This document shows positions 1,356 through 28,045 of a stretch of 28,045 nucleotides of DNA, in pieces. This DNA comes from a virus. The stretch covers positions 1-28,045 of the IMG/VR virus record IMGVR_UViG_3300037839_000698. One strand, 5' to 3'. The notes below the pieces were generated by a model. It searched no databases. It saw only the letters and a program-made list of their open reading frames with translations, and was not told the DNA's origin. The stretch's first letter is position 1. Each line of letters starts with the position of its first letter. The position numbers and the translations under genes are program-made.

Positions 1356-1362
1356 ATTACAC
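1356..1362 (-). promoter_or_regulatory. late-type element GTGTAAT, 6 nt before 1350 start
   Basis: Serves the holin-like gene and presumably the downstream lipoprotein cluster. This is the closest spacing of the set. Confidence 0.55.
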
Positions 1363-2588: not shown

Positions 2589-2607
2589 TAATCCTTACAT
2601 AGGATTA
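2589..2607 (-). promoter_or_regulatory. small hairpin in the leader of the virion protein gene
   Basis: TAATCC and GGATTA form a 6-bp stem with a 7-nt loop, between the GTGTAA element and the ATG at 2582. The 5' arm overlaps the promoter element and the 3' arm abuts the AAGG ribosome-binding site, so the structure could modulate translation of the structural gene. Confidence 0.3.
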
Positions 2608-2610
2608 CAC
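2604..2610 (-). promoter_or_regulatory. late-type element GTGTAAT before 2582 start
   Basis: Lies 22 nt before the virion protein ATG and just before the portal stop codon on the + strand. Confidence 0.5.
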
Positions 2611-8396: not shown

Positions 8397-9080
8397 TTAA
8401 CGTATATCTATTTCGCCGCTATAGATGTATTTTTTAACTTTTTGTATAATTGATTTTTTAAGATTTTTAATTTGCTTGTAGCCTGCTGACCTATTTTTTT
8501 CAGTAGTCTTATATCCCATTATTACTGCGGCTTCTTCATCTGATTTATGTTGGACATAAACTAATTCATAAAATCTCCATTCGGATAACTTTAAAATTTT
8601 TGACATTTTATTATGAATATTTTCTGCGCTTTTTTCAATATTTATATTATCATGAACCATGTTATGAACTTCTTGGGTGTGATTCTCTAAAGCCACGGGA
8701 AGTTTAATATCATAAGCTGATTTTTTTCTTTTTTCCCACTTTTTATAAAGAGAACATGCTCCGCATTGTTTGCCGTATATTTTGCATAGATCTTCGCCTT
8801 CTGCTGCTGAACATTTTAAGCAAGGTCTAGAGTAGTTTCCATAATTATTACGAATTAAATTTTTAATTTGATTGCTTATGATTCTATTAACCCAAGGCGC
8901 AAGCGGTTGTTCCTGATCGTAAAGAGCCCATTTATTATTTATATGTATTCTTATAATTTGAGAAACATCACTAAAGTCCATCCAAGCAAGCGCGGTTAGA
9001 TTCCATTTATTTTTTCTTTTATAGATTTCTTGATCTATTTCACCAATTTTTTCCTCAAACTTGGCTTTCTTTTTACTCAT
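8397..9080 (-). CDS. sigma-70-family-like transcription factor with Cys cluster
   Basis: This 227-residue protein has a region-2-like segment at about 33-82, ending in QPLAPWVNRIISNQIKNLIR, which matches the ECF pattern 'plgaWl.rIarN...lR'. A region-4-like helix-turn-helix lies at about 164-212 (LSEWRFYELVYVQHKSDEEA, then a Lys-rich recognition helix). Between them is a Cys cluster (C87, C90, C99, C106, C109) that could hold zinc, unusual for a sigma factor. T4-like phages use a small sigma-like protein (gp55) for late transcription. A similar role is inferred here, matching the single-element promoters in this window. The gene overlaps the upstream Zn-ribbon gene at TAATG. Confidence 0.65.
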   Translation of the reverse strand: MSKKKAKFEEKIGEIDQEIYKRKNKWNLTALAWMDFSDVSQIIRIHINNKWALYDQEQPLAPWVNRIISNQIKNLIRNNYGNYSRPCLKCSAAEGEDLCKIYGKQCGACSLYKKWEKRKKSAYDIKLPVALENHTQEVHNMVHDNINIEKSAENIHNKMSKILKLSEWRFYELVYVQHKSDEEAAVIMGYKTTEKNRSAGYKQIKNLKKSIIQKVKKYIYSGEIDIR

Positions 9081-9520
9081 TACCTTGATCTTCTAATAGA
9101 TCCAGCTTCTTTTTTGAAGTCTTCAAGGATTTTCTTATTTGACACTTTTTGAGCTTTTATTTTTGAAGAACTTCTTTTATTTGGTTTTGAGGGAGATTTC
9201 ATTAAATCTCCTATTTTTTCTCCTCTAATTTTTTCTGCAAAGGTTTCTATTTCTAGGCCTTTTATATCGGGAACATGATTAATACCATTATCATAATTAT
9301 CATTATCATCCTCATTATCATAATTTTCATTATTATCTTCAGTATTCCTTAATTTTTGATTAAGATTAGGGCGAGCACGATTAATCTTATTATTAGCTAT
9401 AATAGGTTTATCTTGAGCAGTTTGATTATTATCAAATGATTTACCACAATTACAGCAAAATTGGGGTTTTTTTAAAGAATAATCTGTTGCGGATCCACAA
9501 GAGGTACAATATCTTTTCAT
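9080..9520 (-). CDS. Zn-ribbon protein with acidic linker
   Basis: The first 30 residues of this 146-residue protein form a zinc ribbon: C5-x2-C8 and a second knuckle C22, C23, C25 (QFCCNCGKSF). An Asn/Asp/Glu-rich low-complexity segment follows (about 60-80, NYDNEDDNDNYDNG), and the C-terminus is basic (KRSSSKIKAQKVSNKK). No enzyme domain is visible. It is translationally coupled to the sigma-like gene. Small Zn-ribbon proteins beside transcription factors can act as co-activators or RNA-polymerase adaptors; that role is only an inference from position. Confidence 0.65.
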   Translation of the reverse strand: MKRYCTSCGSATDYSLKKPQFCCNCGKSFDNNQTAQDKPIIANNKINRARPNLNQKLRNTEDNNENYDNEDDNDNYDNGINHVPDIKGLEIETFAEKIRGEKIGDLMKSPSKPNKRSSSKIKAQKVSNKKILEDFKKEAGSIRRSR

Positions 9521-9577
9521 TTAATATAATTATATATTAAAAATTAATTTAAATCCAATTAAAATAATTATTTAATA

Positions 9578-9898
9578 TTAAACTAACGATAATATATTTA
9601 CTTCTGAAGCTTTAACTTCTTCTGTTTTCGGTTCTTCGACTTTGACTTCGTTGACTACTTCTGCTGGTGCGGTTACTGAGGTGTGAACTGACTCAACAAC
9701 TGGGGCTTCTAATTTAATTTCAACTACTGGAACTGGTGCTTGAATTTTTTCATCAACTACTGGCTCCAGCTTAGCTTGTTTGCTAGCTTCTTCTTGAGCT
9801 TTTTTCTCTTTAATTTCTTTGATCTTATCTGAAAAATCAATTTCAATACCATTCCTGTCTGCCGCTTTAATCTTGTTTTTTGGTTGAAATATAGACAT
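9578..9898 (-). CDS. Pro/Val/Glu-rich low-complexity protein
   Basis: This 106-residue protein begins MSIFQPKNKIKAADRNG, continues into a charged helix (IKEIKEKKAQEEASKQ) and ends in repeated P-V-V-E/E-V-K segments. No domain is recognised. Such Val/Pro/Glu-rich tails are usually extended and disordered, as in linkers or scaffold-like virion proteins. The start carries the GTGTAAT element 8 nt upstream and faces a plus-strand micro-gene with its own copy, so this is a divergent promoter region. Confidence 0.55.
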   Translation of the reverse strand: MSIFQPKNKIKAADRNGIEIDFSDKIKEIKEKKAQEEASKQAKLEPVVDEKIQAPVPVVEIKLEAPVVESVHTSVTAPAEVVNEVKVEEPKTEEVKASEVNILSLV

Positions 9899-9905
9899 AT
9901 ATATT

Positions 9906-9912
9906 ATTACAC
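9906..9912 (-). promoter_or_regulatory. late-type element GTGTAAT before 9898 start
   Basis: 8 nt before the ATG; half of a divergent pair with the plus-strand element at 9927. Confidence 0.5.
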
Positions 9913-12075: not shown

Positions 12076-12082
12076 ATTACAC
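12076..12082 (-). promoter_or_regulatory. late-type element GTGTAAT before LRR protein 1
   Basis: Part of the copied block 'membrane-gene tail, element, tagged leader'; 8 nt before the ATG. Confidence 0.55.
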
Positions 12083-14221: not shown

Positions 14222-14599
14222 TTATTCTAAAGCAAATATTGGAAGAGTTGTAGATTGTGGGCAATTATTGATCATATAACTCGTTAGTTGCCATTTATTT
14301 GATGGAAATTTATCACTATTATTATAACTATTTGTGAAATATACTTCATCTGGACTTATTATTTTATAAGATCCATTTCCGCCATACCCTTCTGGAGTTA
14401 GTGGAGTAAGTATATTATAAAAAGCAGTATCTGTTGGTCTATATCTAAAGCTCGGTGCATCTAAATAAATCCATGTTCTATTAAATACTGAAAAATTACA
14501 GTTGGCATCTGCATCAAATGCTAAATTATTAAGTATTAATGATACGCCAAAAGTTATGAAATTAGGTTGAGCAGGATCTCTTTTAACTATAAAAGCCAT
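14222..14599 (-). CDS. tagged small virion-type protein
   Basis: This 125-residue protein starts MAFIVKRDPAQPNF, carrying the shared IVKR tag, and continues with a beta-rich, Asn/Tyr/Trp-rich body (NGSYKIISPDEVYFTNSYNN then FPSNKWQLTSY). The pattern 'NG-x-Y ... Y ... N-x-W-x-L/F' recurs in the proteins at 19501-20013 and 20018-20488, suggesting one small domain family used as virion decoration or tail-tip parts. It is first in a unit with LRR protein 2 and its partner. The start lies 8 nt from the GTGTAAT element. Confidence 0.6.
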   Translation of the reverse strand: MAFIVKRDPAQPNFITFGVSLILNNLAFDADANCNFSVFNRTWIYLDAPSFRYRPTDTAFYNILTPLTPEGYGGNGSYKIISPDEVYFTNSYNNSDKFPSNKWQLTSYMINNCPQSTTLPIFALE

Positions 14600-14606
14600 A
14601 AATTAT

Positions 14607-14613
14607 ATTACAC
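14607..14613 (-). promoter_or_regulatory. late-type element GTGTAAT before 14599 start
   Basis: Second copy of the duplicated block; 8 nt before the ATG, with TATTTAAATAAG just 5' of it. Confidence 0.55.
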
Positions 14614-14614
14614 G

Positions 14615-14674
14615 ACTTATTTAAATAGGTTTTTATATTTTTTTTCTTTTATTGCGTTCTAAAGCTGTTATAAA
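14615..14674 (-). pseudogene. degenerate 3' end of the two-TM membrane gene
   Basis: Read on the minus strand this gives F-I-T-A-L-E-R-N-K-R-K-K, matching FITVLERNKRQK near the end of the intact membrane protein at 14879-15145. It then shifts frame (an in-frame TAA appears) before resuming as T-Y-L next to the promoter. A frameshifted remnant between two tagged genes records an old tandem duplication. Confidence 0.6.
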
Positions 14675-14865
14675 GGATTCCAATAGATTATTCCATTCAA
14701 ACTACCGTCCAAGTAACCTCCAAATGGCCCATAACCAGTACTACCCGCATTATATATGCAGACATAATTAACTCCACCGAGGCTTACTATATCTCCGATA
14801 ACATAAACAGCTCCGCTGCTATAAGCTGGATAAATGAGCGCTTCTCTTTTAACTATAAAAGCCAT
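14668..14865 (-). CDS. tagged mini-protein with CBM5/12-like domain
   Basis: This 65-residue protein has the tag MAFIVKREA fused to a compact domain with the pattern Y-x-x-G-x-x-Y-x-x-GD-x-V-x-x-x-G-x-x-Y-x-C (AVYVIGDIVSLGGVNYVCIY) and an end-of-domain Trp (IIYWNPL). This resembles chitin/cellulose-binding modules of the CBM5/12 type, which bind polysaccharides through exposed aromatics. A phage protein of this size would be a sugar-binding decoration or tail protein. The GTGTAAT element lies 8 nt upstream and overlaps the stop of the preceding membrane gene. Confidence 0.6.
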   Translation of the reverse strand: MAFIVKREALIYPAYSSGAVYVIGDIVSLGGVNYVCIYNAGSTGYGPFGGYLDGSLNGIIYWNPL

Positions 14866-14872
14866 AAACTAC

Positions 14873-14879
14873 ATTACAC
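14873..14879 (-). promoter_or_regulatory. late-type element GTGTAAT before 14865 start
   Basis: The intact copy of the duplicated block; overlaps the TAG stop of the membrane gene. Confidence 0.55.
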
Positions 14880-15145
14880 TACTCTTTTAAATAGCTTTTA
14901 ATATCTTTAATCAACTTTTGTCTTTTATTGCGTTCTAGTACTGTTATAAAGGTCGCTATTGATATTGGAAAAGAAAACCTCAGAAAGAATTGAAGGTGGT
15001 CTTTCTTACTTAATAAATCAAAGTAATTAATATAAAGGTCACTTAGCCCCCAAAGCGTGAAAAGTATCGCAGGGACAAAAGTGATAAAAAAGAACTTATC
15101 ATAGGATTTTAAATCAGCCCACCAGTTCTTGATTTTAAGTAGCAT
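14879..15145 (-). CDS. two-TM membrane protein
   Basis: This 88-residue protein has two hydrophobic segments, about 18-40 (FFFITFVPAILFTLWGLSDL) and 53-69 (FFLRFSFPISIATFITV), a short loop and a basic C-terminal tail (ERNKRQKLIKDIKSYLKE). Topology is holin-like, but so is that of many small phage membrane proteins, and a separate holin-like gene lies at 1066-1350. It is the intact copy of the gene whose tails survive at 14615-14674 and 12083-12103. A GTGTAAG element sits 9 nt before the ATG. Confidence 0.6.
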   Translation of the reverse strand: MLLKIKNWWADLKSYDKFFFITFVPAILFTLWGLSDLYINYFDLLSKKDHLQFFLRFSFPISIATFITVLERNKRQKLIKDIKSYLKE

Positions 15146-15712: not shown

Positions 15713-15951
15713 TTTTCTGTTCCGCTTGCAGTTTGTATATCTAAATTATTTTTAGTTTGTTTGGCCACAATTGATCCTATCATACTTAATATAAGAACAC
15801 AAGCGAAAATTAAAGCGTAATGTGTTTTTTCTTGAGCTTTCTTTTGAGCTCTATATTGATGAAAATTACTTATGAATTCTTCTGTGTCTCTTTTGGAAGG
15901 AAGACTCTTTTCATAATTATTTAATAATAAGTTTCTCAATTTATTATCCAT
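15685..15951 (-). CDS. single-pass membrane protein
   Basis: This 88-residue protein has a charged cytoplasmic-type N-terminal helix (about 1-42, LRNLLLNNYEKSLPSKRDTE), one TM segment at about 45-63 (YALIFACVLILSMIGSIVA) and a short outer tail with one Cys. The N-in layout with a soluble front and a TM end resembles anti-sigma or signalling partners as well as simple membrane adaptors; nothing decides between these. It overlaps the PEP-CTERM gene stop by 8 bp, so the two are coupled. Confidence 0.6.
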   Translation of the reverse strand: MDNKLRNLLLNNYEKSLPSKRDTEEFISNFHQYRAQKKAQEKTHYALIFACVLILSMIGSIVAKQTKNNLDIQTASGTEKCNTQVMEK

Positions 15952-17953
15952 TTCTTCTTCTCATAATTCTTAAAACAATTAATCCAGTAAGTCCACCAAA
16001 CATTAGTGAGAATGTAGAAGGTTCTGGAATAACATTTACTATTCCATCTGTGGTAAAACTATTAGCGTCCCATTTTAAATTTGAATTAGCAGTATCTAAA
16101 TTTGGTAATGCTGCTAGCAATGTATTAACATCAAATGTAGATGCTTCGATTGACTCAAAATTAAATAAATCATAACTATCATTCATTTGAAATGAGTAAT
16201 TATCTAATGTTTCAAATGTCCATGCAGTATTAGTTCCTAATGTCAATAATGTACTTACATTGATTGCATCATAGGTAGTACCTCTGGTAGTTGGTGCACC
16301 TAATTGGAATTGGAATATTCCATTACTTCCATTTAACTCATAAGCAGATAGCAGACCAGCACTATTGCCAGGGGCCACAGTTCCACCATTTAAAGTTAAA
16401 CCTTGCACACTACCAGAGCCACCTAATCTACCTCCTGTGTTTACTAAAACATCTCCTGCGTTTCCATTGACTGATAGCAAACTTCCATTGATTGTTGCAC
16501 TTCCAATTGTCCCATCTGAATTTACTGTAGCAGTTCCAGAATTTACTGTGGTAGTTCCAGCTGTACCAGAGACTAATAGAGTGCCGCCACCTACTGTTAT
16601 AGATCCAACTGTGCCACCACTATCTACAAGTAAACTTCCGCTATTAACAATTACTCCACCAGCAACTCCTTTAACTTGTAAAGTTCCACCAGAAACTATA
16701 GAAGAACTTGATAAAATAGAGCCAGTTGTATTAACTAATAATTTTCCTTCTTGGATTGTTGTATCTCCATTGTAAGAATTTATTGCTTCAAAAGTGCTTG
16801 TTCCAGTTCCTGTTTTCGTTATACCTCTTAGTACAGATGCTGTATTAAGCAAAGATCCTTTGAAAAGAAAATCACCAACCCCACCAATAGTATTCACATC
16901 TGCGACTGTTGATCCAACGTCCAATGTACCATCAAACTGTACAATTAAATTAGTACTATTGTTAATCAATCTTCTGCCACCACTGGTATCTGTGGATGAT
17001 GTGAGTGTGTTGGCAACATTGGTGAATTGTAACAACGTTTTGCCTCCACCATGATTAGTGAAGCTCATGTTATTGCCTTGATATTGGTTCACAATAAAAG
17101 TGGTAATCGCATCTGGATTGCCTCCTAACAAATCTAATGTACCCATAGTGGATGTGCTGCTGGACCCTTTGAGGCTGTTGGCAACAGACAGACCATTGGT
17201 TGTGTTGATTACCAGTTTAGGACCATTCGTTGTACCAGTTGCAGCTGCAATTGTTATCAATCCTTGGCCAGCTCCAGTGCCTCCATTCACATTCACAGTG
17301 CCTCCTCCTTTGATTTCAAACCCTCCACCTAGAGTGTTGGTGCCATTGAATGTGACTGTGCCATTGCCAGTGTATAAGAATCTACCAGCAGTGGATGAAC
17401 CTCCTTGTTTTAATTCATTGTTGAATGTGAATGATCCATCTCCTGCCAAAGTTAATAGTCTGGATGTGCCAGAAGATGCAGTGGTTAGTGAAGCTACATT
17501 GTTGAACACCAATCCCCCACCTGCAGTTTGAAACCAAGTGTTGTTTCCATTGGCATTTTCTACCAATATGTTGAATGTTTGAATGGCAGTAGAATTGTTA
17601 GTAATGCCACCACTGGATGATAAGATCTGCGCGCCATTGAAGCTGTTGATCAAATATGGATTCGCATTGGTCAAAAATGTTATGTTTCTTGCAGCTCTAG
17701 AGGAAGTCAATACAACAGTATTATTATTGGCTCCAAAATTACCAAACTGAATTTCATCTGTGGTGGTACTAGAACTAGTAGATGAAGGTTGAACTCCATT
17801 AGTCCAGCTTGTTGGTGATGTCCAATTTGTTCCAGTATTGTTCCAAAGAAATACTACTGCATGAGATTCTTGGACAGCTCCAGACATTAAAAAAGCCGCA
17901 ATTAATTTTGCGGCTGTGCTTTTTAGTACCTTTTTCAATAGGTTATTTTTCAT
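15944..17953 (-). CDS. PEP-CTERM surface protein with autotransporter-type beta repeats
   Basis: This 669-residue protein is exported: a signal peptide at 1-32 ends in ESHA and the mature protein starts VVFLWNNTGTNWTSPTSW. A long Gly/Asn/Thr-rich passenger follows, with autotransporter-associated beta-strand repeats (about 400-520, units such as VNSGTATVNSDGTIGSATI), then a compact domain and the sorting tail: VIPEPS, a TM helix (LMFGGLTGLIVLRIM) and Arg cluster RRR. PEP-CTERM tails are recognised by host exosortase, which processes proteins for the outer envelope. The phage gene therefore appears to rely on host sorting. It has AAGGAG before the ATG. Parts of the gene are GC-richer than its neighbours, suggesting acquisition from a host. 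Confidence 0.85.
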   Translation of the reverse strand: MKNNLLKKVLKSTAAKLIAAFLMSGAVQESHAVVFLWNNTGTNWTSPTSWTNGVQPSSTSSSTTTDEIQFGNFGANNNTVVLTSSRAARNITFLTNANPYLINSFNGAQILSSSGGITNNSTAIQTFNILVENANGNNTWFQTAGGGLVFNNVASLTTASSGTSRLLTLAGDGSFTFNNELKQGGSSTAGRFLYTGNGTVTFNGTNTLGGGFEIKGGGTVNVNGGTGAGQGLITIAAATGTTNGPKLVINTTNGLSVANSLKGSSSTSTMGTLDLLGGNPDAITTFIVNQYQGNNMSFTNHGGGKTLLQFTNVANTLTSSTDTSGGRRLINNSTNLIVQFDGTLDVGSTVADVNTIGGVGDFLFKGSLLNTASVLRGITKTGTGTSTFEAINSYNGDTTIQEGKLLVNTTGSILSSSSIVSGGTLQVKGVAGGVIVNSGSLLVDSGGTVGSITVGGGTLLVSGTAGTTTVNSGTATVNSDGTIGSATINGSLLSVNGNAGDVLVNTGGRLGGSGSVQGLTLNGGTVAPGNSAGLLSAYELNGSNGIFQFQLGAPTTRGTTYDAINVSTLLTLGTNTAWTFETLDNYSFQMNDSYDLFNFESIEASTFDVNTLLAALPNLDTANSNLKWDANSFTTDGIVNVIPEPSTFSLMFGGLTGLIVLRIMRRRNG
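17885..17915 (-). terminator. intrinsic-terminator-like hairpin inside signal-peptide codons
   Basis: AGCCGCAA (17894-17901) and TTGCGGCT (17908-17915) form a perfect 8-bp stem with a 6-nt loop. Read on the minus strand it is followed by six T residues, the form of a Rho-independent terminator. It lies about 40 bp inside the PEP-CTERM coding region (codons for S-T-A-A-K-L-I-A-A-F-L), so it could attenuate transcription of this gene and of those downstream. Confidence 0.5.
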
Positions 17954-17959
17954 ATATAG

Positions 17960-18523
17960 TTACTCCTTCTTGTCTTCATCTAAGTGAATAGACACCTCTT
18001 TGTAGATTTTGTTCATTTTATTTTTCTTTATTTTTTGAACGTATGTCCAGTCATTTAGCATAAAGTCCTCTACCACTATTATAGGATAAGTTTTATTGAT
18101 GTACAACTTTATTTTTTCCCTATATTCTTTTTTATTTCCAATTTGACATATTGGTGATGTTCCCCAGTTTGGATCATAGATCCATAAGTTATTCTTATAC
18201 TCAAAAACACAAACTGCATGACCAATTATATTATCTATGTCGTCTTTGTAGTAAAATGTAAAACCATAAACATTGTTCCATATATCATTGTTTGTTTCTA
18301 ATAAGAGATTACATTGAGAAGCATAAATCATAGCATCAACAAAACAAGAGTTTGGAAGGTTAGTTATGTTATTGTATTTTTTAAGTTCAAAACCAATTTT
18401 AAAACAAGCGGCCCAAGATACGATTAATGCAAACCCAACAAGTAATGTTTTTGTTTTCCAGTTCCCGAGTTTACTTATTTTTTTTGTAGTCTTCAAGGCA
18501 AGATTTAAATTTAGATTTGTCAT
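17960..18523 (-). CDS. membrane-anchored Cys-His-Asp peptidase-like protein
   Basis: From the ATG at 18523 the protein has 187 residues; a GTG at 18544 would add seven. A basic N-terminus is followed by a TM anchor at about 25-45 (TKTLLVGFALIVSWAACFKI). The outer domain carries a candidate triad: C60 (NSCFVDAMIYA), H102 (GHAVCVFEY) and D117 (WIYDPNWG), the order seen in transglutaminase/papain-fold enzymes including LapG-type adhesin-releasing proteases. It directly precedes the PEP-CTERM gene (6-nt gap), so it could process or release that protein; a murein-peptide target is an alternative. The 5' end overlaps the preceding gene by about 53 bp. Confidence 0.6.
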   Translation of the reverse strand: MTNLNLNLALKTTKKISKLGNWKTKTLLVGFALIVSWAACFKIGFELKKYNNITNLPNSCFVDAMIYASQCNLLLETNNDIWNNVYGFTFYYKDDIDNIIGHAVCVFEYKNNLWIYDPNWGTSPICQIGNKKEYREKIKLYINKTYPIIVVEDFMLNDWTYVQKIKKNKMNKIYKEVSIHLDEDKKE

Positions 18524-19463
18524 CACCTTTTTTTGTAGGAACACATTTTTTTAAGAACTCATTGAATTTTTCGCCTTCAATGGTCATCATTTTTTTGTAT
18601 TCTTCGTCTGCTTCTATTGTATATATTTTATCTCCAGAAGCTTCTGCGTTTTCATTTTCTTTATTAAACATTACATAATTATGAATAGTAATCATGTAAT
18701 CTTCTGCTAATGCAGCTGTTTGTTGTAAGAATGGTTCTGTTAGATTTTCTTTAACCATTGGATCATTTAATTTATTTAAAATGTTTTGAGCGTGAACTTG
18801 AATTGAAGTAATAGAGCCAACTATCATACCATAAAAATCTTCTTTGTAGTCTTCTAGATCTTCAATTTCTTCTGCTTGAGATAAGCCAGCGTCAATTTTA
18901 AGAAGTTCAACTTGATCAAATTCTGTTTCGCCATCCCATTCGTATTCTTCGTTTAGATAATCTGATCCTTGAGCTTTTTTAAGAGCTTCTTGACTTGGGC
19001 GATCCTTTGAGCCTTTTGGTGCTGGACGATAATTTTTACCCATTCTTTTTTTCTTTTGTTGAATGTTATACCAAAGGCCTTTACTCTTGGCTTGAACGTC
19101 TATTTCTAAAGTTATTTCTTCTTCGTTATTTTTAACTGAACCACAATTTGGTTTACCGCATGATCCTGTGATTTTACTAACTGGTTTTGCGCTCCACATT
19201 TTGCAACTCCAATAATTAGCTTTATATTTTGGACCAGGATTATCACATCCATGTCTTGCTCTAAAAGATTTGCGTCTTTCGGGATTGTCTCTTTTGATGG
19301 ACATATTTGGATCGCCGAAAGTAACTTTTACAATATTACCTTTATCGTTTTTGACATAAACACCAAATTTCTTTTTGCTTCCAGAAGGAAGGCGAAATGG
19401 TTTGTTAAGAGGAGCTTTGCCTTTTTTTGCTGCTAGTATATCTTTTGAGAAATCGATTTCCAT
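18471..19463 (-). CDS. conserved phage protein with Cys-rich N-terminus
   Basis: This 330-residue protein starts MEIDFSKDILAAKKGKAPL. It has two motifs that recur in many environmental phages: one around residues 70-105 (RRKSFRARHGCDNPG, then YWSCKMW), followed by CGKPNCG, and one at about 145-180 (GLWYNIQQKKKRMGKNYRP, then KDRPSQEALKKAQ). The Cys residues could bind a metal. The C-terminal half is acidic and helical and ends in a Lys-rich tail. The two motifs together are typical of phage proteins of unknown role, sometimes encoded near head genes. It leads the PEP-CTERM operon from a GTGTAAT element 12 nt before its ATG. Confidence 0.7.
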   Translation of the reverse strand: MEIDFSKDILAAKKGKAPLNKPFRLPSGSKKKFGVYVKNDKGNIVKVTFGDPNMSIKRDNPERRKSFRARHGCDNPGPKYKANYWSCKMWSAKPVSKITGSCGKPNCGSVKNNEEEITLEIDVQAKSKGLWYNIQQKKKRMGKNYRPAPKGSKDRPSQEALKKAQGSDYLNEEYEWDGETEFDQVELLKIDAGLSQAEEIEDLEDYKEDFYGMIVGSITSIQVHAQNILNKLNDPMVKENLTEPFLQQTAALAEDYMITIHNYVMFNKENENAEASGDKIYTIEADEEYKKMMTIEGEKFNEFLKKCVPTKKGDDKSKFKSCLEDYKKNK

Positions 19464-19474
19464 ATTATATATCT

Positions 19475-19481
19475 ATTACAC
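19475..19481 (-). promoter_or_regulatory. late-type element GTGTAAT before 19463 start
   Basis: 12 nt before the ATG; the likely promoter of the whole PEP-CTERM operon. Confidence 0.5.
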
Positions 19482-20508: not shown

Positions 20509-20850
20509 CTAACTTCTTTCCCAGCAAATATAACTTGGGCTCACTCCACTAACACTAACTATTCCTGCGTAATTAAGATCACTTAAGCTTCCACCATCAC
20601 CACCTCCAGAAACAGTACTTGAAGCTAGAACAAAATTAAATGAATTAGAAGCAGCAGAAGTTCCGTATTTTACATAAAGATTACCGCTCTGTAAATTTTG
20701 AATAAAAAGTTCTTCGCGGTTAGCATTTGCTTGTAAAACTGTTCCATTTGTTCCACTTGGTGTAAAATTAGATATTGGGTCTGCTGGGGTGGCATCATAA
20801 TCTAAATTTATTCTTTTTTCAGAAGAGTCTGTTGTTGTGAGGTTAGACAT
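20509..20850 (-). CDS. small phage virion-type protein
   Basis: The core of this 113-residue protein reads ANREELFIQNLQSGNLYVKYG followed by AASNSFNFVL. This strand pattern ('R..l.iQN...g.lyV..G..AS...F.f.L') occurs in many small phage head or tail accessory proteins. A Gly-rich linker (SGGGDGGSLSDLN) leads to a short Trp-ending C-terminus. It heads the unit with tagged proteins B and A. The GTGTAAT element lies 11 nt before the ATG. Confidence 0.65.
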   Translation of the reverse strand: MSNLTTTDSSEKRINLDYDATPADPISNFTPSGTNGTVLQANANREELFIQNLQSGNLYVKYGTSAASNSFNFVLASSTVSGGGDGGSLSDLNYAGIVSVSGVSPSYICWERS

Positions 20851-20860
20851 ATTAAATATG

Positions 20861-20867
20861 ATTACAC
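20861..20867 (-). promoter_or_regulatory. late-type element GTGTAAT before 20850 start
   Basis: 11 nt before the ATG; likely serves the small virion protein and both tagged proteins B and A. Confidence 0.5.
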
Positions 20868-20887: not shown

Positions 20888-21613
20888 TTATTTTATTTCT
20901 TCAAATTTCTCAATAATATAAGCTAAGATATCATTTCTCATGATGTCACTTGTGCCAAATTTAAATGTTATTATACCTTTGTTTTTACTTTTCTCATCAT
21001 CAAACAGTTGATATATTCTTTCAAATCCACTATTCTTAATATCTGATTGACGAATATCTCCAATAAATATTAACTTACTAAATTTACCCATTCTAGTACT
21101 AACTAATAAAAGGTCATGAATACTTAAGTTTTGAGCTTCGTCACAGATAATATAACTAGCATTGATACTGAGTCCTCTTAAAAATCCTAATGGAAGTCCT
21201 TTGACTCTTTCTTGTTTTAATAATAATTCTGCTTGGCCTTTTGGTAGAAGTTCATGAAGCTTATCCATTAAAGGCTGTAAATATGGATCTAATTTTTCAT
21301 GAAGATCACCTTTAAGAAATCCTAGATTATGTGTGCTACTCTCAACAGGATTACGAATATAAAATATCTCTCCAACTTTTTTATTGTTAATTGCGTGAAG
21401 AGCACAATAAACACTTAGTAAACTTTTAGCTGTTCCTGCTGGGCCTTTGCAAAAAACCATCTTTGTGGATTTATCTTGCAGCATTTGAATGAACTTTATT
21501 TGATTTTCTGTCCAATTAAGATCCCTAATATTCAAAGGTTGTTGAATTTTATCTCTTTGAGGAACCACTGGAGACTTGTCCTCTTTTTGTTCTTTACGAT
21601 GTTTTTTGGACAT
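20888..21613 (-). CDS. PhoH-family ATPase
   Basis: This 241-residue P-loop ATPase has Walker A GPAGTAKS at 57-64 and Walker B YIICDEAQN at 154-162, followed by GDIRQSDIKNSGFER, the conserved sensor region of PhoH proteins. The basic N-terminal 30 residues are probably disordered. PhoH-like genes are frequent in environmental phages; PhoH is an RNA-linked ATPase whose exact phage role is unclear. The start is set by the first ATG after a GTGTAAT element 17 nt upstream. Confidence 0.9.
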   Translation of the reverse strand: MSKKHRKEQKEDKSPVVPQRDKIQQPLNIRDLNWTENQIKFIQMLQDKSTKMVFCKGPAGTAKSLLSVYCALHAINNKKVGEIFYIRNPVESSTHNLGFLKGDLHEKLDPYLQPLMDKLHELLPKGQAELLLKQERVKGLPLGFLRGLSINASYIICDEAQNLSIHDLLLVSTRMGKFSKLIFIGDIRQSDIKNSGFERIYQLFDDEKSKNKGIITFKFGTSDIMRNDILAYIIEKFEEIK

Positions 21614-21629
21614 GAGGTTTCTATAAATA

Positions 21630-21636
21630 ATTACAC
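21630..21636 (-). promoter_or_regulatory. late-type element GTGTAAT before PhoH-like gene
   Basis: 17 nt before the ATG at 21613. Confidence 0.45.
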
Positions 21637-21676: not shown

Positions 21677-21958
21677 TTAAACTAACGAATAAGATTCTTC
21701 AAATTTTAAAGTTAAAGAAAGTTTATTCACAGGTTTTCCTTCATCAAACCTTTTAATAAATGAAGCACCTTGTTTTGGCATTTCAGCAAAGTAGCTGATC
21801 CCTTTTTTGGAAAAAACCACATGTGATGGTAGAACAGATATTGCTGTTATTTTTCCTCTCACTTGTTCTTTTAATGCTCTGGCTATTGCACAATTTTGTG
21901 GATTTGCTTTTTCTCCTTCGAGAATGTTTATGTCTGTTATATTTATTTTTTTATTCAC
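21677..21958 (-). CDS. small conserved-type phage protein
   Basis: The 93-residue protein contains NPQNCAIARALKEQVRG, a 'C-[AP]-I/V-A-x-A' helix seen in small phage proteins of unknown role, followed by beta strands (ISVLPSHVVF, ISYFAEMPKQ). It overlaps the upstream gene stop by 8 bp, so it is coupled to it. No enzymatic motif. Confidence 0.6.
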   Translation of the reverse strand: MNKKINITDINILEGEKANPQNCAIARALKEQVRGKITAISVLPSHVVFSKKGISYFAEMPKQGASFIKRFDEGKPVNKLSLTLKFEESYSLV

Positions 21959-22595
21959 TTTTTGTTTCCTTTATTTTATAGTCATAATTATCGCTATCTT
22001 CAGTAACCCACTTAGGGCTATTTTCAGAAGTATAAATGTGACTGTTTATTTTTCTTTGCAAAACCAATTCGTTTGGTTTCGTTGCGAAACTTGGGTCAAG
22101 AACTTTTATTCTATTGTTTGGTTGAATAGCAAAATTGCCATTATCAAGTTTTAGAACATGACCAGCTTTATGTTGATCAGGTTTTTGACTGAATCCGAAA
22201 TTTAATTCATTATAATCGCTATGAGCCCAATCAAGAGTAAACAAATACCGACCCATGTATTCTTTTCCACTTCTTCCAATATATTTAACTATTTTATTTT
22301 CTAAAAGATAAAAGGTTGTTACAGCTATATGATAACTAAAACTATCCCAAAGCTCTAATTCTTCTAGCTCCATATCTATTGCATCTTCTTTTGAACAAAA
22401 CGCACTAATAGGCGCATGCCACCAAATGCCCCCATCTTCCATAAGAAAGTTGAAAAGAGGAACTTGGCTAGGGAGACTTGTTATGCCAAATATTAAGCAT
22501 TTATATTTTTTATCAAAACTGTCTTCTTGATTTCTCAAATAATTTCCTCTAACGTAGCATTCTAAGGGAGGAATATTTGAATTAAGAAAAGACAT
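21951..22595 (-). CDS. conserved phage protein, unknown function
   Basis: This 214-residue protein has the pattern of a widespread phage protein of unknown function: an opening FLNSNIPPLECYVRGNYL, a central HAPISAFCSKEDA followed by LELWDSFSYHIAV, a YLFTLDWA segment, and HVLKLDNGNFAIQPNNR with a DPSFATKP end. It is soluble and alpha/beta with no nucleotide-binding motif. The GTGTAAT element lies 18 nt before the start, facing the plus-strand Cys/Gly-rich gene. Confidence 0.7.
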   Translation of the reverse strand: MSFLNSNIPPLECYVRGNYLRNQEDSFDKKYKCLIFGITSLPSQVPLFNFLMEDGGIWWHAPISAFCSKEDAIDMELEELELWDSFSYHIAVTTFYLLENKIVKYIGRSGKEYMGRYLFTLDWAHSDYNELNFGFSQKPDQHKAGHVLKLDNGNFAIQPNNRIKVLDPSFATKPNELVLQRKINSHIYTSENSPKWVTEDSDNYDYKIKETKSE

Positions 22596-22612: not shown

Positions 22613-22619
22613 ATTACAC
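22613..22619 (-). promoter_or_regulatory. late-type element GTGTAAT before 22595 start
   Basis: 18 nt before the ATG; forms an inverted pair with the element at 22631, TATTACAC...GTGTAATA. Confidence 0.5.
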
Positions 22620-22630
22620 TTATAAATGTT

Positions 22631-22637
22631 GTGTAAT
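22631..22637 (+). promoter_or_regulatory. late-type element GTGTAAT before 22648 start
   Basis: 11 nt before the ATG of the Cys/Gly-rich gene; plus-strand half of the divergent pair. Confidence 0.5.
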
Positions 22638-22647
22638 ATAAGATGAT

Positions 22648-23019
22648 ATGAATTTTGATTTTATTATTAATAAGTTTTTTGAAACTAAATTAATCAAAGG
22701 ATTCCCAGCATGTCCAGATTGCCCAGATCCAGATCCAGATTGCGAAGATCCTTGTGGATGTGATTGTCAAGATGGTGGACCTTGTGGTGGAGGTTGTGGT
22801 GGAGGCGGTGGAGGTGGCCCATTGGGTAGAGTAATGAGTATAGAAGAAGAAGTTGGTGAGTTTTTAGCTGTTGGTGGTAATCTTGAGCCCATGGGAAATG
22901 ATGGCATAACATATTGCCCAACACCTGCTCCTCCTAAATGTAAAGATTGCGAAGTTAGCGGCGGAGTACACAATGGTCCTGGTGAAGGTGTTTGTATCCA
23001 AGTTACTAATGAATATTAA
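22648..23019 (+). CDS. Cys/Asp/Gly-rich protein on the plus strand
   Basis: The first 16 residues of this 123-residue protein are ordinary, then comes ACPDCPDPDPDCEDPCGCDC, followed by GGPCGGGCGG with a poly-Gly run, and later CKDCEVSGG and a final Cys. The Cys-Asp density suggests metal binding or a disulfide-rich surface protein. It stands alone on the plus strand within the late region. Support for reality comes from its own GTGTAAT element 11 nt before the ATG and a codon pattern better than in the opposite frames, which give only Pro-rich or His-rich shadows. Confidence 0.6.
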   Translation: MNFDFIINKFFETKLIKGFPACPDCPDPDPDCEDPCGCDCQDGGPCGGGCGGGGGGGPLGRVMSIEEEVGEFLAVGGNLEPMGNDGITYCPTPAPPKCKDCEVSGGVHNGPGEGVCIQVTNEY

Positions 23020-24991: not shown

Positions 24992-25231
24992 TTATCTACT
25001 TTTCCAATTATTTCCTATCCCTAGGCCATTTTGAGCGGCAGGAATAGAAATATAAACCTTGGGCGCTGCTAATTTTGAACTATCTTCGGTTTTGTTTGGG
25101 ATTATAGCAAGTTGTTTGGTTGTGTTGTTATTGGTATTTACTATTAATTTACTTTTAGTATAGCTACTAATAAAATAAAACAAAGAGCCTAATGCTACTA
25201 CCAAAGATAATGTTTTAAGATTGTATTTCAT
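24992..25231 (-). CDS. small membrane-anchored protein
   Basis: This 79-residue protein has an N-terminal anchor at about 8-25 (LSLVVALGSLFYFISSYT) and an exported-type Asn/Thr/Lys-rich tail ending in ISIPAAQNGLGIG. It is the first late-type gene at the right boundary of the minus-strand block, with a GTGTAAT element 10 nt before its ATG. Function unknown. Confidence 0.6.
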   Translation of the reverse strand: MKYNLKTLSLVVALGSLFYFISSYTKSKLIVNTNNNTTKQLAIIPNKTEDSSKLAAPKVYISIPAAQNGLGIGNNWKSR

Positions 25232-25645
25232 ATACTTTATATTACACTAGTTGTTGTATATATAAAAAGACTTATAAGCAAAAATAGCCCATTGGATTTT
25301 TTGTCTTTCAAAGATATCTATTGTTATTGATTTTAAATGCATTTTAAAAAAGGGGGGGGTATATAAGGATATAAGAGATAATAAGATAATAGCTATTTTA
25401 TTGTATTATTTATATATAGAATAAGAGTATTATAATTTGGGGAGACTGATGCTAGTACCCCCTCGTCTGTTTTGTGGAATTGATCGAGTTAATTTTTTCA
25501 AAAATGGGGTGGGCCATAGGTAATTCCTCACCATAAATAAAGCGCTCCATCTTTTAATAAAAAAAATAATAGTAAATAAATGGGGTAGGGTTTAAGGCCT
25601 TCTCTAAATCGTTAATGGTCAATGAAATTTAACTGAAGAAATCTC
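25232..25645. other. divergent intergenic region between late and early genes
   Basis: This 414-nt gap lies between the leftward and rightward gene blocks. It contains the late-type element at 25241-25247, an eight-G run near 25350, an AT-rich stretch to about 25435 and a possible 24-codon plus-strand ORF at 25449-25523 with GGGGAG before it (low confidence). No clear gene, tRNA or strong hairpin was seen. It is a natural place for promoters or an origin. Confidence 0.5.
25241..25247 (-). promoter_or_regulatory. late-type element GTGTAAT before 25231 start
   Basis: 10 nt before the ATG; rightmost late-type element, at the boundary with the early genes. Confidence 0.5.
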
Positions 25646-25673
25646 TTGTGTCTTTCCTGTAATATGATAGACT
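25646..25673 (+). promoter_or_regulatory. sigma-70-like promoter P1, near-leaderless
   Basis: TTGTGT, a 16-nt spacer with TG one base before the -10, and TAGACT. The -10 box ends 8 nt before the ATG at 25682, so the predicted transcript starts within a few nt of the start codon. Confidence 0.55.
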
Positions 25674-25681
25674 ACTCTTAT

Positions 25682-25855
25682 ATGAAAAACAAATTGAGCA
25701 AGTTCGAAACCCTGCTAGCTAACCTTGAAAAAGCCTCTGCGAATCACGCCAAGGCTTGTGAGTCTTTCCTAAAAGTCTCTGAGGCGTATTCCTCTAAGCG
25801 TGAGGAGATGCTGAAAATCTATGAGCCTAGCGATCTCAGCCACGCTTGCGAGTAA
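25682..25855 (+). CDS. small helical early protein A
   Basis: The ATG at 25682 is chosen because its N-terminus (MKNKLSKFETLLANLEKASA) aligns with the early protein at 27308-27511 and because promoter P1 ends just before it; the upstream in-frame ATG would lie inside the promoter. The 57 residues are all helix and probably coiled coil. It opens a short plus-strand unit with a membrane peptide 4 nt downstream. Function unknown; such small early proteins often act on host machinery. Confidence 0.55.
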   Translation: MKNKLSKFETLLANLEKASANHAKACESFLKVSEAYSSKREEMLKIYEPSDLSHACE

Positions 25856-25859
25856 TAAC

Positions 25860-25943
25860 ATGAACCAAATAGAAATCATCCTTACCCTTACCATCGTGAC
25901 CATTCTTATCGGAATCTACGCTATGGTGACAGCCCAAAAATAA
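25860..25943 (+). CDS. 27-residue single-pass membrane peptide
   Basis: This tiny ORF follows the helical protein by 4 nt and encodes one membrane helix (IILTLTIVTILIGIYAMV) with a short Gln/Lys tail. No clear ribosome-binding site, so it may depend on coupling from the gene before it. It lies 465 bp upstream of the SleB-type hydrolase. A pinholin or membrane regulator would look like this; the role is only suggested. Confidence 0.5.
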   Translation: MNQIEIILTLTIVTILIGIYAMVTAQK

Positions 25944-25947
25944 ATCA

Positions 25948-25976
25948 TTGACACAACCAATCGAAAAGGATAATAT
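25948..25976 (+). promoter_or_regulatory. sigma-70 promoter P2, near-leaderless
   Basis: A consensus TTGACA, 17-nt spacer and TAATAT. The -10 box ends 7 nt before the ATG at 25984. It is the best match to the bacterial consensus in the window. Confidence 0.7.
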
Positions 25977-25983
25977 AACCACT

Positions 25984-26403
25984 ATGAAAAACCAACTGAA
26001 CATCACTAAACAATCATTCGGCGATACAACCGCTTTCCTCTTGGAAGGTGGCAAAGGTCGCATCACCTCATTCCACAACGCCCTTTACAACTGGGGTGCA
26101 ACCAATGGTCAGTTGCACGATATGGGCAACGGCAAAGCGTTTTACTTCTACGCTCACCCCGATGCAGTCTTACACGCTCTCGTCAAGATCGCCCTTCACT
26201 CCTTGTGCAATAAAATAAGCGCAAAGGGAATGAAGGGTGGATTGATTAACCTTGCGAAGATCAAGGCACAAGGCCAATTCGATAACATCATTGATGGACG
26301 ATTCCTTCGTGCCTCTGTCTCTAACGATACCTACGGATTCGGTACGATCACAGCAGAGAAACCCTCTGACTACTGCGGTGCAATCAGCAACGGAAGGGAC
26401 TAA
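25984..26403 (+). CDS. unknown early protein
   Basis: The ATG at 25984 is placed by promoter P2; an upstream in-frame ATG would lie within the promoter. The 139 residues are mixed alpha/beta with ITKQSFGDTTAFLLEGGKGR, GNGKAFYFYAHPDA and a Gly-rich C-terminus. It has higher GC and different codon choice from the rest of the window, as does its neighbour, suggesting separate origin. No family is recognised. Confidence 0.55.
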   Translation: MKNQLNITKQSFGDTTAFLLEGGKGRITSFHNALYNWGATNGQLHDMGNGKAFYFYAHPDAVLHALVKIALHSLCNKISAKGMKGGLINLAKIKAQGQFDNIIDGRFLRASVSNDTYGFGTITAEKPSDYCGAISNGRD

Positions 26404-26407
26404 TCAA

Positions 26408-26785
26408 ATGACAGCAGAACTATTCATTGTAGCACTCACACTCTTAGGCGAAGCTAGAGGCGAAGGGGTGGAAGGTATGGCTGGTGTTGCTAGCGTTATC
26501 CAAACACGGATGATAGAGCGTCACCAATCAGCTAGCCAAGTATGTTTAGCACGAAAGCAGTTTAGCTTCTGGAATGGTGGCGTAAGTGAATCCACTAAAA
26601 GGAAACTGCTTGCGACACCACAAGGTAAGAACGCTCTTTACCTTGCTGACCTAGTTATCCATAAACAACTACAAAGCATTGTGAAGGGTGCAAACCATTA
26701 CCACGCTGTGAGTGTCTCGCCTAAATGGGCGAAAGATGCGAAGCTAGTAGCAACGATACGCAATCACAAGTTCTACCGATTGTAG
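26408..26785 (+). CDS. SleB-type cell-wall hydrolase (endolysin candidate)
   Basis: The ATG at 26408 has a GGAAGGGA-like site upstream, and the protein is 125 residues. It matches the SleB/Hydrolase_2 family: LGEARGEGVEGMAGVASVI (with E15 as the likely catalytic Glu), a QFSFWN segment, and GANHYHA ... SPKWAK ... ATIRNHKFYRL. These enzymes cleave peptidoglycan, acting as lytic transglycosylases. No signal peptide or cell-wall-binding domain is present, so it may need a holin. It sits in the GC-richer plus-strand island rather than with the holin-like cluster at the left end. Confidence 0.8.
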   Translation: MTAELFIVALTLLGEARGEGVEGMAGVASVIQTRMIERHQSASQVCLARKQFSFWNGGVSESTKRKLLATPQGKNALYLADLVIHKQLQSIVKGANHYHAVSVSPKWAKDAKLVATIRNHKFYRL

Positions 26786-26788
26786 GAC

Positions 26789-26816
26789 TTGACAACAACG
26801 AAAGGTTTGATAAGAT
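26789..26816 (+). promoter_or_regulatory. sigma-70 promoter P3, leaderless
   Basis: TTGACA, a 16-nt spacer with TG before the -10, and TAAGAT. The -10 box ends 6 nt before the ATG at 26823, placing transcription start at or next to the A of the start codon. Confidence 0.65.
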
Positions 26817-26822
26817 AGAACA

Positions 26823-26966
26823 ATGAACAATACAAACGACAAAATAATCGAGTTGGCATCCAACTTGGTAAACATAATCAAAGACCTAAACGCTAAACAA
26901 TATAATCTTACCGCTGCGGTTTACCTCGCAGAGTTGAGCAACCTACTCAAAACAAAGAGCGTCTAA
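26823..26966 (+). CDS. 47-residue early protein
   Basis: The ORF starts MNNTNDKIIELASNLVNIIK and ends LAELSNLLKTKSV, a short helical and probably soluble protein. Support comes from its dedicated promoter, whose -10 box sits 6 nt before the ATG, and from a continuous frame with ordinary codons. No family is recognised. Confidence 0.5.
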   Translation: MNNTNDKIIELASNLVNIIKDLNAKQYNLTAAVYLAELSNLLKTKSV

Positions 26967-26970
26967 GTTG

Positions 26971-27199
26971 TTGACTATCAATGACTTACGGCGGCTGGCA
27001 TGCGTTTTGCTGTAAGCATCTAATACTCAATTACTTAAGCATACTCGATCTTAGCGACAAAACTGATGGAACGCAAAAGATCATAACCGATCTTAGCTAT
27101 AAACATGAATGAACGCATATAATATAAATGCTTGATAACTAGGGACTTACATAAGATCTCTTGCATTTTGCTGTAAGTATCTGATACTGAACGACTTAA
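26971..27199 (+). repeat. A-B-B-A direct repeat array with sigma-54-like site
   Basis: Two 56-nt A units (26983-27038 and 27144-27199) share GACTTAC, TTTTGCTGTAAG and a ..ATACT..ACTTAA end. Each has a CTTAC/GTAAG inverted pair. Between them are two 42-nt B units, at 27046-27087 and from 27088, both starting CGATCTTAGC and having an AACGCA core. AAGATC/GATCTT (27077-27094) forms a 6-bp hairpin. In the first A unit TGGCATGCGTTTTGC has the GG-N10-GC spacing of a sigma-54 promoter; the second copy lacks the GG. The array could be an origin, a regulatory region or a small-RNA locus. Confidence 0.55.
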
Positions 27200-27273
27200 C
27201 TCATAAGAAAAACTTAAATCATCATAAGTAAATCTACTATCTAATAAATTTAAAAAAAATCTTTAAAAATACC

Positions 27274-27301
27274 TTGCATTTCTTCTGAAATATGCTAAAC
27301 T
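27274..27301 (+). promoter_or_regulatory. sigma-70-like promoter P4, leaderless
   Basis: TTGCAT, a 16-nt spacer with TG before the -10, and TAAACT. It ends 6 nt before the ATG at 27308, the same geometry as P1 and P3. Confidence 0.65.
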
Positions 27302-27307
27302 GTATCT

Positions 27308-27511
27308 ATGAATAAAAGATTAACCAAATACGAAATCCTAATCGCAAACCTTGAAAAAGCCTCTGCTGATCTGAAAAAAGCAAATGAAGAAACTACAAAA
27401 AGAATTGACCAAATTTTTGAGAAATATCAAGAGAAAGTTTCAGTCGCTCATCATAACTGTATGATGGTCAACGAAAAACAAATTGAAGAAATCCCTTGCA
27501 ATCCTTCGTGA
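27308..27511 (+). CDS. small helical early protein B
   Basis: This 67-residue protein starts MNKRLTKYEILIANLEKASA, a paralogue of the early protein at 25682 through its first 20 residues. The two also share about 20 identical bases around AACCTTGAAAAAGCCTCTGC. The remainder is a different charged helix ending in a Cys-containing tail (EEIPCNPS). Its promoter is similar to that of the paralogue, so promoter plus leader seem to have been copied together. Function unknown. Confidence 0.6.
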   Translation: MNKRLTKYEILIANLEKASADLKKANEETTKRIDQIFEKYQEKVSVAHHNCMMVNEKQIEEIPCNPS

Positions 27512-27523
27512 ATGTGCTAAACT
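27496..27523 (+). promoter_or_regulatory. sigma-70-like promoter P5
   Basis: TTGCAA, a 16-nt spacer with TG before the -10, and TAAACT, overlapping the end of the gene at 27308-27511. Here the ATG is 46 nt downstream, so unlike P1-P4 this promoter gives an ordinary leader. Confidence 0.6.
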
Positions 27524-27569
27524 ATAACTATAACAAGATAAGAAATAACAAAGAAAGAAAATAAATAAA

Positions 27570-27842
27570 ATGAATAAAATGATAAATTGGAATTTTCACC
27601 GCAGACAAATGCGTGAAAATATGCGAAAAAATGTGAATGCTTCTGAAGAAGTAATCATTACTAACTCTAACAACACACCAACATACTTTGGTGAAATTTA
27701 CCTTTACGAAGGAACTCTAGTAAAAGTTTCTTATAAAACTTCTGCTAATAGTGCAGTTGTAACCTTCCTTGAAGGTAAAGATAAAGATAAGGTTGGAACT
27801 ATCAACCTTAACAATGCTAAACTAGTAAAGGAAAATAAATAA
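27570..27842 (+). CDS. small early protein with SH3/Tudor-like repeat unit
   Basis: The basic N-terminal 20 residues of this 90-residue protein (WNFHRRQMRENMRKNV) could bind nucleic acid. The rest is a small beta fold, LVKVSYKTSANSAVVTFLEG, then KDKDKVGTINLNNAKLV. The partial gene that follows shows a related unit, so the two are likely paralogues. The start of the next gene directly follows this stop codon. Function unknown. Confidence 0.55.
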   Translation: MNKMINWNFHRRQMRENMRKNVNASEEVIITNSNNTPTYFGEIYLYEGTLVKVSYKTSANSAVVTFLEGKDKDKVGTINLNNAKLVKENK

Positions 27843-28045
27843 ATGATAACAATAAATAAAGAACTAACTACAGATGAAAACACTTTTCGATATAGTCACG
27901 AAAAACTACTCGTAAAGATTTTCCCTTCTACAATCGGTTGGAAAACTATGACTGCAACTGCTGAAATCCTCGAAGGTGAGGACAAAGGTAAATGGACAAC
28001 CATTTATCTTCGTAGCGGATTGTATAATGTCGATACAGATTCTCT
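27843..28045 (+). CDS. partial small beta-type protein (runs off the window)
   Basis: The ATG immediately follows the preceding stop, and 67 codons are visible before the edge. Its segment KLLVKIFPSTIGWKTMTATA followed by EILEGEDKGKWTTIYL parallels the preceding protein (LVK..., LEGKDKDKV.TI.L), suggesting a paralogous small beta fold. The C-terminus lies outside the window. Confidence 0.5.
   Translation, partial: MITINKELTTDENTFRYSHEKLLVKIFPSTIGWKTMTATAEILEGEDKGKWTTIYLRSGLYNVDTDS

Follow-up and report, generated by a model that had tools for sequence, protein, structure and literature searches.

The classical leaderless phage mRNA is that of lambda cI, which is transcribed from PRM and translated from a 5'-terminal AUG. 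The late promoters of phage T4 consist of a TATAAATA box with no -35 element and are read by the sigma factor gp55 together with the gp33 co-activator and the sliding clamp. For the Thermus phage phiYS40, leaderless transcription of middle and late genes was reportedly described by Sevostyanova et al. in 2007. Published accounts report that most middle and late mRNAs of this phage are leaderless (PMC3594737, also PMC12340547), and lambda cI is likewise named as leaderless (PMC9031893). About 30% of open reading frames (ORFs) in Deinococcus-Thermus carry a '-10 region adjacent to ORF', for which reporters show that expression requires the -10 box and varies with how far this box lies from the start codon (PMC12340547). 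Here we describe the same geometry in the virus record IMGVR_UViG_3300037839_000698, whose 28,045 bases are called the window throughout. Four sigma-70-type promoters, P1 to P4, stand immediately ahead of start codons in its segment 25646-27523. They are very probably working early promoters placed for leaderless mRNA, and form one half of a two-promoter design that extends across a phage family.

An earlier note on this sequence had listed five promoters in the segment, and all five are present (Table 1). As it also stated, four of them (P1, P3, P4 and P5, not P2) carry a TG, which lies one base upstream of the -10 box, and four have a -10 box that ends 6-8 nucleotides (nt) from an ATG. The distances are 8, 7, 6 and 6 nt for P1 to P4; P5 is a leadered promoter. 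In transcription with sigma-70, the first transcribed base (+1) follows the last base of the -10 hexamer by about 7 nt. With a gap of 6 nt, +1 is therefore predicted to fall on the A of the AUG. Within 25600-28045, the pattern used in the earlier note (TTGnnn, a spacer of 16-17 nt, TAnnnT, 6-8 nt, ATG) has four plus-strand matches and no minus-strand match. Dinucleotide shuffles give a mean of 0.078 matches, and 0 of 500 shuffles reach four. The remaining window holds six matches over both strands, which is not clearly above chance.

The window is a fragment of a tailed phage and encodes a terminase large subunit, a PhoH-like protein, an ERCC4-type nuclease and a cell-wall hydrolase. Its family is large, uncultured and of freshwater type. 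The stretches matched in viral contigs include 282 terminase relatives, and homologues of gene 25984-26403 occupy 70 loci in viral contigs as long as 172 kilobases (kb). Close relatives among named phages are lacking: the listed terminase matches, all to phages other than phiYS40, have 24-29% identity, and the product of gene 25984 has no match in any named phage. The record covers the 28-kb window only, and the contigs of relatives are incomplete. Gene-start counts refer to six genomes, the window and five relatives (contigs of 109-172 kb, read at full length). Genes were called mechanically with the most upstream ATG as start, which yields 833-834 genes.

A motif-free scan of 6-mers upstream of 834 genes recovers two signals at fixed positions relative to the ATG. 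GTGTAA and its overlaps, at -14, occur 135 times against 6.3 expected, and TTGACA, at -34 to -37, occurs 56 times against 7.1. The genome-wide tally of -10-to-ATG distances that the earlier note had proposed, carried out over the six genomes, places sigma-70 boxes 5-9 nt before the ATG in 85 of 833 genes, compared with 4 expected from the other ATGs of the same genomes. A distance of 6 nt is commonest (53 genes), and 7 nt is found in 21. Boxes 10-59 nt before the ATG precede 45 genes (25 expected). Across 19 records, TTGACN-N16-18-TANNNT-N6-ATG matches 207 times, and its reversed pattern 15 times. The same gene-start method (5-9 nt) identifies 4 of 58 genes in phiYS40 (50 kb scanned) and none in either T4 (76 genes) or Pelagibacter phage HTVC008M (49 genes). 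A looser whole-genome pattern count (5-8 nt, forward versus reversed) separates phiYS40 (10 versus 2) less well from T4 (7 versus 2) and HTVC008M (7 versus 3).

The earlier note had further proposed that many late-type sites share the spacing of the early promoters. The sites are real, but they carry a separate motif, GTGTAA(T), and probably represent a different kind of promoter. In the window this motif stands ahead of 14 genes, 13 on the minus strand and one on the plus strand, and no -35 partner is found when 128 genes of the six genomes are aligned on it. The distance from its G to the ATG peaks at 14 nt; when TAATAT is read as a -10 box, that box ends about 5 nt before the ATG. GTGTAA lies 12-18 nt upstream of 79 of 833 gene starts and of 39 of 21742 other ATGs, and the counts for GTGTAATN7ATG are 55 versus 3 in eleven records.

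Shine-Dalgarno sequences are distributed unevenly among these classes. The background frequency in the six genomes is 7.5%. The value is 7% for genes with an early promoter 5-10 nt from the ATG and 0% for those with GTGTAA at 12-18 nt. It reaches 31% when GTGTAA is 19-40 nt away, and 35% in closely spaced same-strand genes without a motif. Such a pattern would be expected if the position of the promoter determines whether initiation is leaderless or relies on a Shine-Dalgarno sequence. Because Shine-Dalgarno sequences reappear behind distant GTGTAAT, the phage family probably uses both routes of translation.

GTGTAAT has no -35 partner and is defined by its position relative to the ATG, so it might be an RNA element, such as a ribosome-binding or processing site within a longer leader, rather than a promoter. 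We consider this unlikely. The distance from the motif to the ATG spans 12-40 nt, and two copies stand back to back in the divergent gap 22614-22636. Genes with intergenic gaps are favored: gaps shorter than 10 nt precede 7 of the 79 genes with GTGTAA but 347 of 615 genes without a motif. In addition, it is the leaders with GTGTAAT farther upstream that regain Shine-Dalgarno sequences.

The proximity of early promoters to start codons could also reflect compact genomes, in which the main transcripts arise by read-through from upstream promoters and leaderless starts are incidental. The median gap before early-promoter genes, 40 nt, is roughly the length of a promoter. However, the -10 box still lies 6 nt from the ATG in 13 of 18 genes whose intergenic gap is at least 150 nt, and compaction alone is therefore no explanation. 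At the 68 loci examined for the gene 25984 family, the upstream neighbors vary while the promoter and the gene remain together. Furthermore, genes with close promoters are without Shine-Dalgarno sequences, whereas these are common in closely spaced genes that lack a motif. Read-through as the main source of transcripts appears slightly less probable than an RNA role for GTGTAAT.

Less probable than either is a reading in which the boxes act as promoters and yet the annotated ATGs are miscalled; translation would then begin downstream, behind a Shine-Dalgarno sequence and an ordinary leader. Start codons of metagenomic phage genes are predictions, and those used here are most-upstream-ATG calls. 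Conservation nevertheless points to the annotated ATGs. Members of the gene 25984 family have an almost invariant ATG and following codons, and third-position variation starts at this ATG. Their -35 box is TTGACG or TTGACA in 66 of 68 loci and begins 35 or 36 nt upstream of the ATG, in one case 38, and the -10 box ends 6-9 nt before it. The interval from P2 to the ATG is out of frame in 17 of the 68 homologous loci and is therefore not coding sequence; an N-terminal extension of gene 25984 from the in-frame TTG at 25948 was rejected on these grounds. For the small genes, the alignments of homologues extend back to the first residues, and the promoter lies 6 or 8 nt upstream in all of them. The -10 box lies at 6 nt in 18 of 25 distinct upstream sequences for gene 25682 (8 nt in the others), in 51 of 56 for gene 27308 (8 nt in five) and in 6 of 6 for gene 26823. 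The sets for genes 25682 and 27308 overlap, as the two genes are related.

Chance or AT-rich composition can be dismissed even though the genomes have 30-33% GC and TAnnnT is frequent, since the controls with reversed patterns (15 versus 207), shuffles (0.08 versus 4) and other ATGs (4 expected versus 85) all refute it. The suggestion that leaderless mRNA may be a general strategy in this phage thus agrees with every test applied, namely conservation of distance, enrichment at 6-7 nt, reversed patterns, control phages and large gaps, although these speak for promoter placement at the level of sequence.

A candidate for the factor that reads the late element is the sigma-70-like protein encoded at 8397-9080. 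It matches TIGR02937 with an E value of 4.1e-5 but a score of 23.3 bits, below the cut-off of 42.9, and Sigma70_r2 at 0.001 with a score of 19.2, below the cut-off of 24. The C-terminal part of its predicted structure superposes on sigma region 4 (Z 8.9, root-mean-square deviation 1.9, 62 residues). A sequence search of solved structures with the sigma alignment produced nothing convincing, and Foldseek alone returned 0 matches for the model at E 0.001. Homologues exist in all five relatives, and an insert containing cysteines is conserved between the sigma-2-like and sigma-4-like parts. The gene directly upstream of the sigma gene, at the head of the operon, has a TATAAT-type box 6-8 nt from its ATG in all six genomes, and in most of them TTGAAA or TTGAAT lies 17 nt upstream of this box. 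In all six, the 800 nt that lead up to the sigma gene are free of the late motif. The protein likely reads GTGTAAT, and the simplest reading would be a cascade that passes from host sigma-70 to the phage sigma factor and on to GTGTAAT promoters.

Under the proposed mechanism, the host RNA polymerase would recognize the TTGACA/TAnnnT promoters and begin transcription on the A of the AUG or 1-2 nt ahead of this base. The resulting leader-free mRNA would enter the leaderless route of translation, in which the ribosome recognizes a 5'-terminal AUG. Promoters of this type would serve DNA-replication genes, small early genes and the sigma-like operon. The label 'early', taken from the earlier note, agrees with the gene content of one relative (G002), in which early-type promoters precede genes for a DnaB helicase, an ATP-dependent DNA ligase, a PHP-domain protein and an Ogg-type glycosylase; it is a label of gene content and not of timing. 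The phage sigma-70-like protein would then send the polymerase to GTGTAAT sites without -35 boxes ahead of late genes, and the placement of these sites would cause the majority of late transcripts to start at or near the AUG. Genes inside operons, and those with a promoter farther upstream, would more often rely on Shine-Dalgarno sequences. On balance it is probable, with less assurance than for P1 to P4 themselves, that a widespread clade of large phages is leaderless in both temporal classes, with host-type early promoters and GTGTAAT late promoters that depend on a phage sigma factor from an early operon in leaderless position.

Several points weigh against this account. The start calls are mechanical, and orthologous promoters recur across related genomes, so the counts are not independent. 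The -10 box occupies the site of a Shine-Dalgarno sequence, and the absence of such sequences from the close-promoter classes is thus partly forced. The exact start point under sigma-70 can shift by a few nt, and some transcripts may bear a leader of 1-3 nt. The family matches of the sigma protein fall under curated cut-offs, its structural model is weak (whole-model predicted local distance difference test score, pLDDT, 67), and four of the five relatives encode a second, different sigma-70-family protein (L153:1054-1683, plus strand), which may instead be the reader of GTGTAAT.

Table 1. Promoters, promoter elements and associated genes in the window
Feature	Position	Strand	Remarks
P1	25646..25673	+	TTGTGT-16-TAGACT, sigma-70-type, TG before -10; -10 ends 8 nt before ATG 25682
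Small early protein, 57 amino acids (aa) (MKNKLSKFETLL...)	25682..25855	+	Predicted leaderless, behind P1
P2	25948..25976	+	TTGACA-17-TAATAT, no TG; -10 ends 7 nt before ATG 25984
Early protein, 139 aa, no assigned function	25984..26403	+	Predicted leaderless, behind P2
Cell-wall hydrolase (Hydrolase_2, 125 aa)	26408..26785	+	Downstream gene, own promoter not evident
P3	26789..26816	+	TTGACA-16-TAAGAT, TG; -10 ends 6 nt before ATG 26823
Small early protein, 47 aa	26823..26966	+	Predicted leaderless, behind P3
P4	27274..27301	+	TTGCAT-16-TAAACT, TG; -10 ends 6 nt before ATG 27308
Small early protein, 67 aa, related to 25682-25855	27308..27511	+	Predicted leaderless, behind P4
P5	27496..27523	+	TTGCAA-16-TAAACT, TG; -10 ends at 27523, 46 nt from ATG 27570; leadered promoter
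Sigma-70-family protein, 227 aa, cysteine-containing insert; candidate late sigma factor	8397..9080	-	TIGR02937 and Sigma70_r2 matches below cut-offs; region-4 fold in a weak model
Early-type promoter TTGGAT-18-TATAAT	9529..9558	-	8 nt before ATG of 9080-9520; heads sigma-like operon; coordinates counted from sequence
GTGTAA(T)	1357..1362	-	12 nt before ATG of 1066-1350
GTGTAA(T)	2605..2610	-	28 nt before ATG of 1383-2582; leader with AAGGATTAAGG Shine-Dalgarno-like stretch
GTGTAA	4522..4527	-	28 nt before ATG of 2613-4499
GTGTAA(T)	9907..9912	-	14 nt before ATG of 9578-9898
GTGTAA(T)	12077..12082	-	14 nt before ATG of 10323-12068 (leucine-rich-repeat protein)
GTGTAA(T)	14608..14613	-	14 nt before ATG of 14222-14599
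GTGTAA(T)	14874..14879	-	14 nt before ATG of 14668-14865
GTGTAA	15155..15160	-	15 nt before ATG of 14879-15145
GTGTAA(T)	19476..19481	-	18 nt before ATG of 18471-19463
GTGTAA(T)	20862..20867	-	17 nt before ATG of 20509-20850
GTGTAA(T)	21631..21636	-	23 nt before ATG of PhoH-like gene 20888-21613; short leader
GTGTAA(T)	22614..22619	-	24 nt before ATG of 21951-22595; short leader
GTGTAA(T)	22631..22636	+	17 nt before ATG of 22648-23019; divergent from the motif at 22614-22619
GTGTAA(T)	25242..25247	-	16 nt before ATG of 24992-25231

The early region has further features of its own. A box, TGAAGAAAT, is found just upstream of the -35 element in P1 and P5 (window about 25630-25645 and 27480-27495) and in most homologous small-gene promoters of relatives (for example, L114, L116 and L189). 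It is possibly a regulator site or an UP-like element. The non-coding stretch 26968-27200 between two early genes contains two diverged copies of about 45 nt each. Each copy reads ACTTAC ... TTTTGCTGTAAG.ATCT.ATACT, giving inverted arms CTTAC/GTAAG. The early cassette at window positions 26001-27000 has 46% GC compared with about 30-33% elsewhere, which suggests another origin or a constraint.

Other genes may bear on the host and on phage physiology. A scan of bacterial genomes with the terminase large subunit yielded 0 relatives, and a scan with the GDP-mannose dehydratase yielded only Bacteroidota enzymes at 43% identity. The minus-strand gene 15944-17953 encodes a beta-strand-repeat (PATR) protein whose C terminus carries a PEP-CTERM-like signal that falls slightly short of the cut-off, and a pseudopilin-like gene adjoins the counterpart of this gene in a relative (L186:203-871 and L186:847-3342, minus strand). 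These proteins may indicate a Gram-negative, perhaps Verrucomicrobiota-type host, a hint too weak for use. The minus-strand genes 10323-12068 and 12388-14220 are paralogs that encode leucine-rich-repeat proteins of about 600 aa, and a related gene of 75-80 aa comes after each of them. Relative G001 carries, near each other, an IMP dehydrogenase/GMP reductase-like gene and a short adenylosuccinate-synthase-like (PurA/PurZ-like) gene (L187:525-1625 and L187:2314-3306), possibly a nucleotide-pool or modified-purine pathway.

Most documented cases of leaderless expression across a phage genome come from Thermus phages, whose hosts abound in leaderless genes. If the design proposed here is correct, promoter placement would choose the mode of initiation, with Shine-Dalgarno sequences retained for downstream genes of operons, and phage messages would perhaps escape a block of canonical initiation. 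Many phage gene starts would be unrecognizable to gene callers based on Shine-Dalgarno sequences. The family would also offer a natural setting in which to ask why a virus abandons its ribosome-binding leader, and GTGTAAT with the sigma-like gene constitutes a testable late-transcription switch in an uncultured group. No earlier description of this design, with its GTGTAAT element, was found in the literature searched, which reaches few subscription journals.

Each of the described systems shares part of this arrangement. Lambda cI provides a leaderless phage mRNA, but for one gene rather than as a genome-wide layout. T4 late promoters likewise place a single -10-like element without a -35 box before late genes and use a small phage sigma-70-family reader, as is presumed here. 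However, the enriched box in the window family is GTGTAAT, not TATAAATA, and it is placed for leaderless mRNA; in the gene-start scan, T4 shows no sigma-70 promoters in leaderless placement. Deinococcus-Thermus genes show the same geometry of promoter and start codon, but these are cellular genes, whereas the phage genes here have clear -35 boxes (TTGACA) and are joined by a second element specific to the phage. A further parallel is phiYS40, a large tailed phage with reported leaderless transcripts, in which the same scan detects sigma-70 boxes that end 5-9 nt from the ATG. Many genes with a -10 box adjoining the start codon give the window family a phiYS40-type layout, a likeness in way of working and not in kinship. 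Unlike the window family, phiYS40 has a thermophilic host from a phylum rich in leaderless genes, and its leaderless mRNAs are described for middle and late genes. In the window family, DNA-replication-type genes are also placed for leaderless expression, and the late class has the GTGTAAT element and a phage sigma-like protein. What appears to be new is a phage clade with leaderless placement in both promoter classes, together with the GTGTAAT element itself.

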